This document shows positions 48,724 through 59,298 of a DNA stretch of 64,000 bases, one piece after another. Source of the stretch: Flavobacteriales bacterium (GTDB lineage Bacteria > Bacteroidota > Bacteroidia > Flavobacteriales_F > PHOS-HE28). Positions within the stretch are counted from its first letter, which is position 1. The number at the start of each line of letters is the position of its first letter. The notes beneath the pieces were generated by a model. The model had not been told where the DNA came from, searched no databases, and worked only from the letters and a program-made list of their open reading frames with translations. The stretch lies in assembly GCA_016788295.1 (NCBI GenBank), contig JAEUSY010000061.1, forward strand, positions 124,001-188,000, read 5' to 3'. The translations under genes and the position numbers were made by a program.

Positions 48724-51700
48724 TCATTTCGTGCCGTAGCGCGGATCTTGCTTCCACGGTAGCTTCTCCACGTGCTCAACGCTCAAGGAGCAGTGTCCGA
48801 ACTCCTCTTCCACCCTGCCCGTCAGCCGGTACACACCACGCCCCCGGAACGGATACTTCGCTTCCACACTGGGGAACTGTGTGCTATCCCAGAAATCACC
48901 GTTCCGATCGATGAAGCTGCCGAAGCTCATGCGTTCACCGGTGCCGGTCCTGGTGGGCTTCACGTGTACCACGTAGCCAAGCATGGAGACGCGCCGGCCG
49001 ATGTGCGTGGGCATGTCGCGGGCAAGGATATGTGGCAAGGCGTTGCCTGTTGTTGTAGTGCGTGTTACGGGTTCTGTCTCCACATCAGCCTTTCCTGCAT
49101 GCTCATTTGCTGATCGTCCGATCATCTGATCCTCTGATCGGCACGCTGCGAGCAGGAATGGATCACATAATGGGAAGCCCAGCAACTCCAATTCATCGTA
49201 GGCATCGCTCAGGTCGAAGTGTTCCAGCGTGGGTAGCTTGGTGGGCGGGGGCTTGGTGACGAAGAGGTCGGGCACGGGGTCGTGCTTGGCGCCGGGGTGC
49301 AGCAGGGTGAGGTCCCACAGCAATTGCGGCTTGGTGCGGCCGGTGAAGCGGAGCGCTCCCACACGGATGAGGATGCGCGCCTGTTCGGGCGACAGGGGCA
49401 CACGCTTCAGCAGGTCGGGCAGGTCGACGAAAGGGCCGTTGCGTTGGCGATCGGTGAGTACAAGTTCCGCGGTGGTGGCTTCGAGCGACTTGATGTTACG
49501 GAGACCGAGGAAGATGCGGGCACCTTGTCGTTGGCTACCGGCTGCTGGCTCGCTCTGCGGGTCAGCAGCCGGTAGCCAGGGGCCAGCAGCATACAACGCA
49601 CACAACTCTTCGCTCCGGTTCACGCACGGCGCTTCCACCACCGCCCCGGCGCGTTTCGCTTCGTGCAGGTAGAATTCGGTGTGGTAGAAGCCGCCGAAGT
49701 TGTTCGCCACGGCCACCATGAACTCCAAGGGGTGATAGGCCTTCAGGTAGAGGCTTTGGTAGCTCTCCACCGCATAACTCGCGCTGTGACCTTTCGCGAA
49801 GCTGTACCCGGCAAAGCTTTCGATCTGCCGCCAGATCTCACTGCTCTCGTGTTCGGGATAACCCTTCGTCTTGCAGTTGCTGAAGAAGCGCTCCTGCACG
49901 CGTTCGAACTCCTTTCGACTGCGGTACTTGCCGCTCATGCCGCGCCGCAGGATGTCGGCCTCGGCCAGCGTGAGCCCCGCATACAGGTGCGCCACCTTGA
50001 TCACGTCCTCCTGGTACACCATCACGCCGTAGGTGTCGGGCATGATCTTCAGCATTGCGGGATGCGCCTGTTTACGCCGTTCGGGATCACGGTGCCGCAG
50101 GATGTATTCCCGCATCATGCCGCTCTGCGATACGCCCGGACGGATGATGCTGCTGGCCGCCACCAGCGTCGGATAGTCCTGCACACCCAGCTTCTTCAGC
50201 AGCATGCGCATGGCCGGGCTCTCCACATAGAAGCAGCCGATGGTATCGCCGGTGCGCAGCAGTTCGTTGATCTTCGGATCGTGCTTGAAGCGTTCGATGG
50301 CGTGGATGTCGATCGCTTCGCGGAATGGAGAATGTGAAGTGGCTGCCTCAGAAGTTCCATTCGAGGTCGCTCTGCATTCTACATTCTTCATTTTACATTT
50401 TTCATTCACGAGCTCCACCGCATCCCGGATATGCCCCAGTCCCCGCTGGCTGAGGATATCGAACTTGTACAGCCCCAGGTCCTCGGCCTCCAGCATGCTG
50501 AACTGCGTGGTGGCGAAGCCCTTCGGCGGCAGGTGCAGCGCGGTGTAGTGGGTGAGGGGCTTCTCGCTGATCAACACGCCGCCCACGTGGATGCTAAGGT
50601 GGTGCGGGTGCTCGTGGAAGTGCCCGGCGTAGCGCAGGATGGTGCGGGCGATGCGGTCGTTGTCGATCACCGCTGTGCCACTGTTCACCGCCCTGGCGTT
50701 CTCGCTGCGGCCGATCCAGCGCGAGCGCGTGGTGTCGCCCTCGGCCAGCGCATCGATCTCGTGCGGCGGCAGCCCGAACACCTTGCCCAGTTCGCGGATC
50801 ACCGCGCGATGCTGGTAGGTGCTGTAGGTCGCCAGCAGCGCAACCCTTCGGTGCGCTCCATACGTGTCGAAGAGGTAGCGCGTCACGTGGTCGCGGTCCT
50901 TCCAACTGAAGTCGAGGTCGAAGTCAGGCGGGCTGCTGCGGCTGGGATTGATGAAGCGCTCGAAGTAGAGATCCAGCTCGATGGGGTCCACATCGGTGAT
51001 GCCGAGGCAGTAGGCCACCAGGCTGTTGGCACCGCTGCCGCGCCCCACATGGAAGAAGCCCTTGTGCTTGGCGAAGCGTACCAGGTCCCAGTTGATGAGG
51101 AAGTAGCTGACGAAATCCTTCTGCGCGATCACGGTGAGTTCGCGCTCCACGCGGTCCACTACCCGTTGCGATGGTGAAGAGAACCGCCGTAACAGCCCGG
51201 CGTGTGTTTCGCGGCGCAGCAGCTCCAGATCGGCGGCTGCGCTTGCACCGGCCCCCGAACCGGTGTCGTTGCTCCAAGTGCGGCGGTTCTTGCTCTTTCC
51301 ATGGGCGAAGTGTACCTCGCACTGCTCCATCAGCCGCCGCGTGTTCCACACCAGTTCGGGCACGTCCGCAAAGACGGTGCACAGCTGTTCCTCGCTCAGG
51401 AAGCGTTGCTCAGGCACTGCGACATGCGATGGCGGAGTGGTGCTCAGCAGCGTATTGGTGTCCACCGCACGCTTCAGGCGGTGCACGTTGAAGTCGCGCT
51501 TGGTGAGTGTGGGATCGCTGCGGAAGGTGGCGGGCGCGAGGGCTACCAAGCGTTCCTTCTGCTTGATCCAGGGGGAGAAGCGCAGGCGGTTCACGTCGCC
51601 GGGCCGGATGCCGATGAACTCGTTGGGACGCAACTGCGCGGGTAGAGGTGATGTGCCGAAGGGATGGATGATGAAGGCCTCGTCCAGTTCGGGTGCGCGC

Positions 51701-52002
51701 TCCGGCAGCTCCACGCCGTCCAGCAGGTGGTCCGTCAGCAGCGAGGCCAGTTGGTGCACCCCGGTGTTGTTCCGCGCGATGCCGATGTACAGCGTGCGCG
51801 GCCCGGCCTTGAACTCGATCCCTGCGAGCGGCCGCACCTTGTACTTCGCCGCCAGCCGGAAGAAGTCGCTCCACCCCGCCGTGCAGTTGATGTCGGTGAG
51901 CGCCACCTGCTGCAGCCCCAGCGCATGCGCCTCCTGCAACACCTGCTCGGGCGAGAGCACGCCGTGGTTGAGGCTGAACCAGCTGTGGGTGTTGATCAAC
52001 AT
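48724..52002 (-). CDS. DNA polymerase III alpha subunit, short DnaE2/ImuC-like form
   Basis: 1092 residues. N-terminal PHP domain (THSWFSLNHGVLSPEQ, ALTDINCTAG). The polymerase core has HVGRGSGANSLVAYCLG and the catalytic aspartates in PPDFDLDFSW. A C-terminal OB-like domain (SMLGYVVHVKPTRTG) ends ...PWKQDPRYG. The size fits the second, mutagenesis-associated DnaE of Bacteroidota better than the replicative one. Three stretches do not fit the family and look like in-frame repeat insertions: residues about 533-561, 803-824 and 952-981. Their neutral placement suggests the enzyme may still work. The usual partners (DinB, LexA-like regulator) are 6-9 kb away. Confidence 0.9.
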   Translation of the reverse strand: MLINTHSWFSLNHGVLSPEQVLQEAHALGLQQVALTDINCTAGWSDFFRLAAKYKVRPLAGIEFKAGPRTLYIGIARNNTGVHQLASLLTDHLLDGVELPERAPELDEAFIIHPFGTSPLPAQLRPNEFIGIRPGDVNRLRFSPWIKQKERLVALAPATFRSDPTLTKRDFNVHRLKRAVDTNTLLSTTPPSHVAVPEQRFLSEEQLCTVFADVPELVWNTRRLMEQCEVHFAHGKSKNRRTWSNDTGSGAGASAAADLELLRRETHAGLLRRFSSPSQRVVDRVERELTVIAQKDFVSYFLINWDLVRFAKHKGFFHVGRGSGANSLVAYCLGITDVDPIELDLYFERFINPSRSSPPDFDLDFSWKDRDHVTRYLFDTYGAHRRVALLATYSTYQHRAVIRELGKVFGLPPHEIDALAEGDTTRSRWIGRSENARAVNSGTAVIDNDRIARTILRYAGHFHEHPHHLSIHVGGVLISEKPLTHYTALHLPPKGFATTQFSMLEAEDLGLYKFDILSQRGLGHIRDAVELVNEKCKMKNVECRATSNGTSEAATSHSPFREAIDIHAIERFKHDPKINELLRTGDTIGCFYVESPAMRMLLKKLGVQDYPTLVAASSIIRPGVSQSGMMREYILRHRDPERRKQAHPAMLKIMPDTYGVMVYQEDVIKVAHLYAGLTLAEADILRRGMSGKYRSRKEFERVQERFFSNCKTKGYPEHESSEIWRQIESFAGYSFAKGHSASYAVESYQSLYLKAYHPLEFMVAVANNFGGFYHTEFYLHEAKRAGAVVEAPCVNRSEELCALYAAGPWLPAADPQSEPAAGSQRQGARIFLGLRNIKSLEATTAELVLTDRQRNGPFVDLPDLLKRVPLSPEQARILIRVGALRFTGRTKPQLLWDLTLLHPGAKHDPVPDLFVTKPPPTKLPTLEHFDLSDAYDELELLGFPLCDPFLLAACRSEDQMIGRSANEHAGKADVETEPVTRTTTTGNALPHILARDMPTHIGRRVSMLGYVVHVKPTRTGTGERMSFGSFIDRNGDFWDSTQFPSVEAKYPFRGRGVYRLTGRVEEEFGHCSLSVEHVEKLPWKQDPRYGTK
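49109..49142. repeat. GATCAG-type low-complexity repeat inside dnaE
   Basis: A degenerate tandem of GATC/TGATC units encodes the SEDQMIGRSANE stretch, which is absent from the expected domain boundary. Confidence 0.55.
49533..49577. repeat. 15-bp inverted repeat inside dnaE
   Basis: Arms GGCTACCGGCTGCTG and CAGCAGCCGGTAGCC are perfect complements around a 15-nt spacer. They encode the odd PWLPAADPQSEPAAGS stretch. Confidence 0.75.
50372..50409. repeat. CATTCTACATTTTTCATTC-type repeat inside dnaE
   Basis: AT-rich array of CATT(C/T) units encoding the NEKCKMKNVECR stretch. A sister copy is at the 5' end of dinB (58841-58876). Confidence 0.75.
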
Positions 52003-52083
52003 CCGTCCGGCCAGATCGACGAAATAAACGGCGATCGGCGGACAGTAATGTAGTCGATCCGGAGGCCCTCGTGAGGGGGGGCG

Positions 52084-52212
52084 CAGCGGCAGCCGACCGT
52101 ATGCGAAGTGTTGGTGCTGCCCGAGCGAGGAGGCCCCGAGGAACTCGGGGACCCCGGAGCCGGTGCAGCACCCACTGAGCCAAGGGCGCTACAGCCCCGG
52201 CTCAAGGCCGGG
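52084..52212 (+). ncRNA. Candidate structured RNA or hairpin repeat, copy A
   Basis: About 129 nt in the gap between dnaE and the next gene. Order: AGCGGCAGCC block; stem GGTGCTGC/GCAGCACC (52113-52120 with 52165-52172); internal-loop blocks AGCGAGGAGG and ACCCCGGAGCC; inner hairpin CCCCGAG/CTCGGGG; then GAGCC, CTACAGC and a final hairpin CCCGGC/GCCGGG. A second copy with different but pairing stems is at 59013-59154. The family is not recognised. The rest of the gap, 52003-52319, holds no gene. Confidence 0.6.
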
Positions 52213-52319
52213 ATGAACTCCGCACCCTACCCCGTGCGTTGGGCCCGTGTGCCGGAAAGGAGACACGCCCTGAACCCCACCACTATACGCATGTACCGCC
52301 CCGCACCGACCTTTACACC

Positions 52320-56892: not shown

Positions 56893-57549
56893 TCAACTGC
56901 ATAGTCCATCCTTCAGTGTTGCCTTCCTCATCTTGTACAACCGCTCGCTGAAACCACCTTCCTTCTCAAAGGCCCTGGCCTGGCTGTCCACCTGCTTGTC
57001 CAAGAGGTGGAGCACGATATTGCACAGCGTCTGGCCCACGTTGGCGCTGATCTCCGCATAGGTACGGTCCTTTACGGTGCGTGGTGTGTGTGCGGTGCGT
57101 GGCCCTTCAACGGCTTGCAAACGCTGTTCCTGCTCTCGCCCCCACAGGGCTTTGATCCAAAGTGCCACTTCGTCGGGGTCTTTGCAGCGCGCGTTGCTCA
57201 GTTCCTTGCGGCGCGGGTCCATGGGCGCCCACACCGGCAGCTTGCGCTGCTCCAGGAACGATTCATAATCCTTTCGCAGTTCATCGATGCTGGCCCGCGC
57301 CACGCTCGTGAGGTTCATCTCCAGTTTCTTGGTGGTGGCGCTGATCTTACTGCCTTCGGCAATGTTCCGCACACCGCTGCGTGCGGCCTGCTCCATTTGA
57401 TCGGCCGTGCGGCTGCCCGCCGGGATGTAGCGGTCCACAAAACGCACGGTCACATCGTAGAGCAGCTTGGCCACCTGGTAGCTCACCAGTTTCTCGTACC
57501 CGCCGCTGGGCTGAAGGATGCTTGGGCGTTCTGGAGTAGGCTTTTCCAT
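56893..57549 (-). CDS. Four-helix-bundle protein (S23/IVP-like) with suffix domain
   Basis: 218 residues. The central part (QMEQAARSGVRNIAEGSK followed by KLEMNLTSVARASIDEL) is the four-helix-bundle family first seen as intervening-sequence proteins of 23S rRNA. The C-terminal extension (YAEISANVGQTLCNIVLHLLDKQ) fits the family variant with an added suffix domain. Related proteins form pentameric barrels that bind nucleic acid; the cellular role is unknown. It lies downstream of dinB on the same strand. Confidence 0.75.
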   Translation of the reverse strand: MEKPTPERPSILQPSGGYEKLVSYQVAKLLYDVTVRFVDRYIPAGSRTADQMEQAARSGVRNIAEGSKISATTKKLEMNLTSVARASIDELRKDYESFLEQRKLPVWAPMDPRRKELSNARCKDPDEVALWIKALWGREQEQRLQAVEGPRTAHTPRTVKDRTYAEISANVGQTLCNIVLHLLDKQVDSQARAFEKEGGFSERLYKMRKATLKDGLCS

Positions 57550-57617: not shown

Positions 57618-58865
57618 TTAGGTCCGCCTGTTCGCCAACAACACCGGCGCCTGCCCATCAAAGGGGTTGTCCATCCGCCCGATGCTCTTCGCGCCCATGC
57701 CGCTGGCGCGCATCACGGTGCGGTCGCCGAAGCGCTTGCGGATCCTGTCCATGGCCTGGTAGAGCTTCATCGCTTCCTCGGTGTCGGTGAAGGCATCGAT
57801 CTGGTGCCCACCGCCCACCAGGTGACTGAAGCGCACGCCGATGAGCCGGATGCGCTGGCGGCGGTCGTAGAGCGCGCGGAACAGCTCGTGCACCGTGGGC
57901 AGGATCAGGTGGTCGCAGGCGGTGTAGGGAATGCGCTGCTGCCGCGTGTGCGTGTTGAAATCGGCGTAGCGGATCTTCACGGCGATGCAGCTGGTGAGCT
58001 TCTCACCCTTGCGCAGTTGGAAGGCGAGGCTTTCGGCCATGGCGGTGAGCAGGCCGTGCAGTTTGGCCACGTCGATGGTGTCGCGCTCGAAGGTGCGCTC
58101 GGTGCTGATGCTCTTGCGTTCGTGCCAGGCGATCACGGGGCTGTCGTCGATGCCATTGGCCTTGCGCCACAGCACGGGGCCGTGTTCGCCCAGCAGGCGT
58201 TGCATCAGGTCCATCGGCACCTCCTGTAGCGTGTGGATCTTCGCCACACCCATGCTGCGCAGCAGGTGCGCGGTCTTCTCACCCACGCCGGGGATGCGCT
58301 CAATGGGCATCGGCGCCAGAAAGGGCTTTTCCGTGCCGCGCTCCACATACCATTCGCCCGGGCCCTGCTTGGCCTCGCCGGTGGCCACCTTGCTCACCGT
58401 CTTGTTGATGCTCATGCCGAAGCTGTTGGGCAATCCGCTTTCCTTGATGATGCGTTGCCGCAGCTCCCGCGCCAGCTTGCGACTGCCATGGAAGCGGTCA
58501 GTGCCGCTGAGGTCCACGTAGAACTCGTCCACGCTGCTTTTCTCGAACAGCGGCACACTGGCGCGGATGATCTCGGTCACCTCGTCGCTTTTCTTCAGGT
58601 AGGCCCCGCTGTCGCCGCGCAGGATGATCGCCTCCGGGCACAGCTGCTTGGCCATCTTCATGGGCATGGCACTGCGCACACCGTAAGCGCGTGCCTCGTA
58701 GCTGCAGCTCGCCACCACGCCGCGGTCGCTGTCGCTGCCGATCAGCACGGGCCTGCCGTTCAGCTTCGGCTCGCGCAGGCGTTCCACGCTCACGAAGAAG
58801 GTGTTGAGGTCCAGGTGTAGGATGGTGCGCTGCCCGTTTTCCATTTTCCATTCTACATTTTTCAT
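57618..58865 (-). CDS. dinB: Y-family DNA polymerase IV
   Basis: Translesion polymerase, 408-415 residues. Catalytic acidic motifs: HLDLNTFFVSVE near the N-terminus and SVDEFYVDL; the YEARAYGVRSAMPM fingers segment and HhH region RIPGVGEKTAHLLRSMG follow. The start is uncertain: codons 1-12 (MKNVEWKMENGQR) are encoded by an AT-rich repeat also present in dnaE. The internal Met at 58844 is an alternative. Together with the short DnaE and the S24 regulator it makes the usual Bacteroidota damage-tolerance set. Confidence 0.93.
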   Translation of the reverse strand: MKNVEWKMENGQRTILHLDLNTFFVSVERLREPKLNGRPVLIGSDSDRGVVASCSYEARAYGVRSAMPMKMAKQLCPEAIILRGDSGAYLKKSDEVTEIIRASVPLFEKSSVDEFYVDLSGTDRFHGSRKLARELRQRIIKESGLPNSFGMSINKTVSKVATGEAKQGPGEWYVERGTEKPFLAPMPIERIPGVGEKTAHLLRSMGVAKIHTLQEVPMDLMQRLLGEHGPVLWRKANGIDDSPVIAWHERKSISTERTFERDTIDVAKLHGLLTAMAESLAFQLRKGEKLTSCIAVKIRYADFNTHTRQQRIPYTACDHLILPTVHELFRALYDRRQRIRLIGVRFSHLVGGGHQIDAFTDTEEAMKLYQAMDRIRKRFGDRTVMRASGMGAKSIGRMDNPFDGQAPVLLANRRT

Positions 58866-59000: not shown

Positions 59001-59012
59001 ATTTGGCCGCCT

Positions 59013-59154
59013 CCCGCCCAAAAGCGGCGGGAACGGGCTGTCCGCTGTAGCCGGCTCGCCGGGTCCTGCGGGCGCGGGGCTCCGGGGTTCCGCCTTAGGG
59101 CGGACCTCCTCGCTCCACGCGCCCACAAGTCCCCGCCTTCGCCGGGCTGCCGCT
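59013..59154 (-). ncRNA. Candidate structured RNA or hairpin repeat, copy B
   Basis: About 142 nt on the dinB strand, upstream of dinB. It shares with copy A the blocks AGCGGCAGCC, AGCGAGGAGG, ACCCCGGAGCC, GAGCC and CTACAGC. Its outer stem is GGGCGCG/CGCGCCC and its inner hairpin TCCGCC/GGCGGA, both different from copy A yet fully paired. It ends with a CCCGCC/GGCGGG hairpin. The remaining bases of the 58866-59271 gap show no gene. Confidence 0.6.
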
Positions 59155-59298
59155 CCCATCCCTGGCGGAAGATCCCGGCCCATCCACAATTCCGTATTGA
59201 CAAAATACCTGTCATGTTGCGTCCGATAAATTAGTCATTATGTTTGTGCTGTCGAATAACTGATCACTGGAATGATGGGAACCCTGGCAATGCATCAG

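Follow-up and report, generated by a model that had tools for sequence, protein, structure and literature searches.

The DNA analysed here (the window) is a 64,000-nucleotide stretch from an uncultured Flavobacteriales bacterium, and it carries two copies, A and B, of a folded element that we consider, with somewhat better than even confidence, to be a DNA repeat dispersed between genes, an elongated form of Flavo-1 comparable in behaviour to a very large REP element. The analysis yields a defined element, its ends and a candidate enzyme, which are open to direct testing.

Copies A and B in the window

Copy A belongs to the class denoted T-type and lies on the forward strand at 52070–52270, between a dnaE2-like gene on the reverse strand and a gene on the forward strand. 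Its ends, 5' CGTGAG (52070–52075) and 3' CACGCCC (52264–52270), were placed by comparison with other T-type copies. The covariance model matches it over positions 52072–52212 (G000:C5:176072-176212) with 98.5 bits. Copy B, a B-type element, lies on the reverse strand at 59007–59168, upstream of dinB and in the same orientation as that gene. Comparison of B-type copies gave its outer stem, formed by CCGCC (59164–59168) and GGCGG (59007–59011), and its model match covers 59027–59167 (G000:C5:183027-183167; 100.7 bits). The preliminary description of this DNA had recognized both copies, which are real, but had cut them short.

Direct reading of copy A along the forward strand gives AGCGGCAGCC (52085–52094), GGTGCTGC (52113–52120), AGCGAGGAGG (52124–52133), the hairpin arms CCCCGAG/CTCGGGG (52134–52140/52144–52150), ACCCCGGAGCC (52151–52161), GCAGCACC (52165–52172), GAGCC (52177–52181) and CTACAGC (52189–52195), and copy B repeats this series of blocks in the same order on the reverse strand. 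All of the blocks previously named as shared are present in both copies, and the observation that the stems differ between A and B yet still pair was borne out. One of these stems had been called the outer stem; it does pair, but it is in fact a middle stem, because AGCGGCAGCC and CTACAGC form the arms of a longer outer structure. The inner conserved module consists of AGCGAGGAGG, a hairpin and ACCCCGGAGCC, and occupies 52124–52161 on the forward strand in copy A (hairpin CCCCGAG-GAA-CTCGGGG) and 59078–59114 on the reverse strand in copy B (hairpin TCCGCC-CTAA-GGCGGA). Within the window, exact matches to AGCGAGGAGG and ACCCCGGAGCC occur in copies A and B only, and a search of the 3.78 Mb genome for the spaced core pattern gave exactly two hits (reversed control, 0). 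When folding was compared with dinucleotide shuffles, the two copies gave z = −3.9 and −3.6.

The 3' arm of copy A contains a GC palindrome, CCCCGGCTCAAGGCCGGG (52195–52213, forward strand), recognized by eye; a similar palindrome is found inside the copy at another locus (L165). In copy B, the palindrome CCCGCCGCTTTTGGGCGGG (59013–59031, reverse strand) lies between the rod and the outer stem, and is missing in most other B-type copies. The proposal that these terminal hairpins could end a transcript did not hold up, since both lack a following U-run and the scan found no terminator-like site at either. Judged by eye, they look like extra palindromes set into the region of the 3' arm.

Architecture of T-type and B-type copies

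The element is a rod of short stems interrupted by conserved small internal loops. Proceeding inward, the closing stem is followed by the rod, GGG-(A.G)-UG-3x3 loop-GC-3x3 loop-AGCC, then by a variable stem and finally by the inner module, GG-A-GC-GA-GGAGG-hairpin-CCCC-GGA-GC-CC. T-type copies, such as A, have the ends 5' GCGTGAG and 3' CACGCCC, and GCGTG pairs with CACGC to close a three-way junction from which the rod and a second hairpin, e.g., CCGGCTGCATTTGAGCCGG, extend. In B-type copies, such as B, these ends are replaced by an outer stem, either CCGCC/GGCGG or GCGCC/GGCGC. Further outer architectures surround the AGCGAGGAGG/ACCCCGGAGCC inner module in other Bacteroidia MAGs (L010, L014, L018, L020, L030, L039 and their relatives).

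Family size and covariation

A covariance model (R1), built from 15 members, had 14 matches in the genome from which the window is taken (10 of them strong, the last two weak) and found copies in 42 of the 45 genomes of the genus, at 1–16 per genome; well-assembled genomes contain the element about 5–18 times each. The proposed search of the genome and its relatives thus revealed many more copies than the original two, and these also pair. The exact pattern matched in 7 of 58 related genomes and 40 times in the GTDB set, where Bacteroidota contigs were among the matches. Those in Actinobacteria, Proteobacteria and other groups were judged by eye to be due to chance, as the flanking stems were missing. 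The same pattern was not found in viral contigs, and a phylum-wide search of 296 genomes with the model under strict filters gave only three weak, short matches beyond the genus.

In the first alignment, two-sided changes were present in 29 of the 46 pairs, with a covariation score of 0.361, compared to 0.140 for shuffled and at most 0.080 for slid controls. A MAFFT alignment of 35 T-type copies, made from sequence only, had two-sided changes in 35 of 57 pairs and a score of 0.299 (shuffled, 0.106; slid, at most 0.088).

Wobble pairs in the stems

Covariation usually counts as proof of a functional RNA. An RNA helix tolerates G.U pairs but not A.C, and G.U would then be expected far above A.C, so a comparison of the two on one strand distinguishes covariation of the RNA type from that of the DNA type. 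The stems of the element, sampled from the top model hits (which may favour perfect pairs, an effect that alone cannot bring G.U down to the rarity of A.C), contained 30 G.U and 27 A.C, or 19 and 22 among the variable pairs, whereas RNase P from the same genus, treated by the same procedure, gave 240 G.U and 14 A.C, or 130 and 2 among the variable pairs. At three covarying pairs that were positioned by the conserved blocks in 83 long copies, the combinations GC/TA/CG, CG/GC/AT and AT/GC were found in large numbers and G.U not at all; the 1x1 mismatch beside these pairs swaps between G.A (40) and A.G (38). B-type copies considered alone showed no excess of wobble pairs, and 39 copies of true Flavo-1 contained 154 Watson–Crick pairs, no G.T and one A.C.

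The stems of a small regulatory RNA would be expected to evolve through G.U intermediates on one strand, and no such trace was found. Since G.U is as rare as A.C, unlike in the RNase P of the genus, the RNA reading is weakened, and the data favour a structure with a role at the DNA level, or on both strands; use of both strands could be another cause of the wobble shortage. From the covariation, the preliminary description had deduced selection on the structure. A folded element with covarying stems is indeed present, but the lack of a wobble excess does not bear out selection on an RNA. The same test suggests that for Flavo-1, which Rfam lists among small RNAs, a folded DNA repeat is the better reading.

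Relation to Flavo-1

Flavo-1 RNA corresponds to Rfam family RF01705 (Weinberg 2010, PMC2864571), which has a curated gathering score of 42 bits. A comparison of the window copies with Rfam gave nothing relevant; RF01705 did not match them at E values up to 10. L016, a copy from Sphingobacteriaceae that shares the inner module, scored 26.5 bits (251 bases searched, E = 0.0009), with both arms covered and 99 nt between them, and short copies from the genome of the window scored 36.6, 34.2 and 23.4 bits. All of these are below the gathering score. The order of helices and loops nevertheless follows the Rfam consensus: the arms of L016, L050 and L051 match in the RF01705 alignment, and the arm pairs of the consensus covary both in the long copies and in true Flavo-1. 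The ends, GCGTGA...CACGCCC, and the second hairpin are common to long and short copies, and true Flavo-1 copies carry the same GATGG-N-AGCGGC ... TACAGCGGACAGC arms.

Short Flavo-1-like copies from the genomes that also carry the long form have matching outer arms and ends. The window element is therefore treated here as a lengthened form of Flavo-1 and not as a formal member of RF01705. The kinship to Flavo-1 that had been suggested is upheld in this sense. The two share the outer arms, with an AGCGGA/C-type 5' arm and a ACAGCGGACAGC-type 3' arm, the order of helices, the GC/GC pairs between 3x3 loops, the covariation without wobble and the dispersed, multi-copy occurrence in Bacteroidota. 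They differ in size, Flavo-1 being ≈76 nt and the window copies ≈140–200 nt, and in the second conserved inner module of the latter.

A candidate transposase

In the genome of the window, a gene resembling a REP-associated tyrosine transposase (NF047646, 45.8 bits, below the cut-off) ends 11 bp before one of the copies (L106). Copies of at least 24.9 bits were present at 7 of 30 loci of relatives of this transposase, some of which are orthologous and hence not independent, compared to none at 30 RNase P loci, which add up to a similar length (best score, 14 bits). At two loci (L294 and L317), no more than ≈15 bp separate the start of the element from the end of the match to the transposase, and seven further copies, some at orthologous places, lie near other Y1 transposase genes. 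Several genomes of the genus with 6–11 copies had no Y1 match above threshold, and presence of the gene does not always track copy number. No Flavo-1 copy was found within ≈1.5 kb of the REP-associated transposase genes at 30 loci in 10 Flavo-1-bearing Flavobacterium-type and related genomes, using a regular expression that recovers 35 of 40 known copies. Y1 transposase genes of the genus (L163–L187) were also seen amid dense short palindromes, e.g., GACCCCGAAGGGGTCGCAG, which often directly precede a Flavo-1-like element.

Like REP elements, REPINs and the REPtrons that contain TnpA(REP) (RAYT), the element is intergenic, palindromic, multi-copy and clustered, and some copies lie directly beside TnpA(REP)-like genes. 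REP elements, however, are 20–65 nt long, while this element is 140–200 nt with the shape of a three-way junction, and the transposase association was not seen in the Flavobacterium-type genomes examined. Due to its length and its conserved ends, GCGTGA and CACGCCC, and with no GTAG foot identified, it does not correspond to the short REP hairpin with a GTAG/GTGG foot. Another possible parallel is the "atypical secondary structures" that, in the account given of TnpA-Y1 subclass 2.6 in PMC6006769, flank these genes in Bacteroidetes; going by that description, they resemble our element in occurring in Bacteroidota, beside TnpA-Y1 genes and with copies elsewhere in the genome.

Our hypothesis is that the element was spread by a REP-associated tyrosine transposase. 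The relevant form would be a DNA hairpin or cruciform, either extruded or formed by single-stranded DNA of the lagging strand, whose conserved loops are probably read by a recognizing protein. Copying or moving was probably once carried out by an enzyme of the Y1/HUH kind, and B-type copies, including copy B, would lie in the 5' leaders of genes like dinB and dnaE2 and may secondarily affect expression there. A bolder generalization, to which we give distinctly less than even credence, is that Flavo-1 and its long relatives make up a single superfamily of mobile repeats in Bacteroidota, large and folded as DNA, that spread through a single-strand transposase of the TnpA(REP) type, with arms kept complementary by a DNA-level process, e.g., hairpin-templated correction.

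Genomic setting and alternative explanations

Not one of the 78 copies falls within a called gene. The first gene downstream of copy B is dinB, encoding DNA polymerase IV (57618–58865, reverse strand), and the gene beside copy A (48724–52002, reverse strand) encodes a DnaE-type, error-prone-like polymerase, assigned as dnaE2 from family resemblance and genomic partners. Upstream of copy B, the reverse strand carries an operator- or promoter-like block (59198–59238) with the palindrome TGACAGGTATTTTGTCA; in other species, this putative control block is conserved in the stretch that separates the element from the divergent genes for ORF6N and a repressor. TGACA-N7-TGTCA occurs in this block, with the dinB-side element on one side and, on the other, a divergent ORF6N gene plus an XRE-type repressor-like gene, and the palindrome looks like the operator of a damage-response circuit.

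The first reading put forward, in the preliminary description as in the Rfam entry for Flavo-1, was that of a structured RNA, either a trans-acting sRNA or a cis leader, with its fold under selection. Strong covariation and identical loop blocks agree with it, and the conserved unpaired blocks together with the orientation bias of the B-type copies would also fit an RNA role: after two T-like copies (L099 and L103) had been reassigned by eye, 17 of 18 B-type copies preceded a gene that shares their orientation (Fisher p = 0.0014, or 0.067 with orthologous loci collapsed). In Flavobacterium psychrophilum, some of the Flavo-1 hits map to 5' transcribed regions, but hits are sense or antisense indistinctly and many are outside transcribed regions (PMC9723704). 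T-type copies, moreover, are randomly oriented (−+ 14, ++ 11, −− 11, +− 11), and the scan, which does not cover Bacteroidota promoters, found no terminator- or sigma-70-like site. Together with the wobble counts in T-type, B-type and true Flavo-1 copies, this makes the structured RNA an unlikely explanation. A co-opted DNA repeat is doubtful too, though less so: B-type copies would be cis regulators of stress-type DNA polymerases, acting as a rod between promoter and start codon, and T-type copies plain repeats. This would account for the B-type copy kept between the conserved operator-like block and dinB in seven species, and for the element that stops ≈20–30 nt upstream of the dnaE2 start at two loci (L144 and L004). 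The genes downstream of B-type copies are diverse, however, and include, besides dinB (in several species) and dnaE2, genes for an icmF-like mutase, ClpB, TetR, HxlR and a dehydrogenase; the bias loses strength when orthologous loci are collapsed, and B-type stems have no wobble signature. Co-option and a mobile folded DNA repeat can hold together.

The copies are also clustered, with 21 pairs within 10 kb (expected, at most 2.6), and in eight species with full context, dinB is bracketed by an inward-facing pair with variable neighbours. Such an arrangement, along with toxin-antitoxin-like small genes near copies, could suggest a folded recombination or insertion site, akin to the attC of integrons, that brackets movable cassettes such as dinB and its neighbours. 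Orientations of close pairs elsewhere are mixed (overall 9 +−, 5 ++, 5 −+ and 2 −−), no integrase was found in a non-systematic look, and the attC core motif is absent by eye, so we regard this as the most improbable of the alternatives. The dispersed folded DNA repeat remains our preferred explanation.

Copies in the genome of the window are mostly within 2 kb of a contig end (G000 contigs C10, C15, C17, C32, C36, C42, C45, C49 and C54). An origin of this pattern in IS-like repeats beside the elements was considered and is unsupported, as the contigs mostly end in ordinary genes, such as those for acetyl-CoA synthetase (acs) and methylmalonyl-CoA mutase. Next to dinB, positions 56893–57549 on the reverse strand encode a four-helix-bundle protein with a suffix domain (TIGR04258), and this gene recurs beside dinB and the element in several species.
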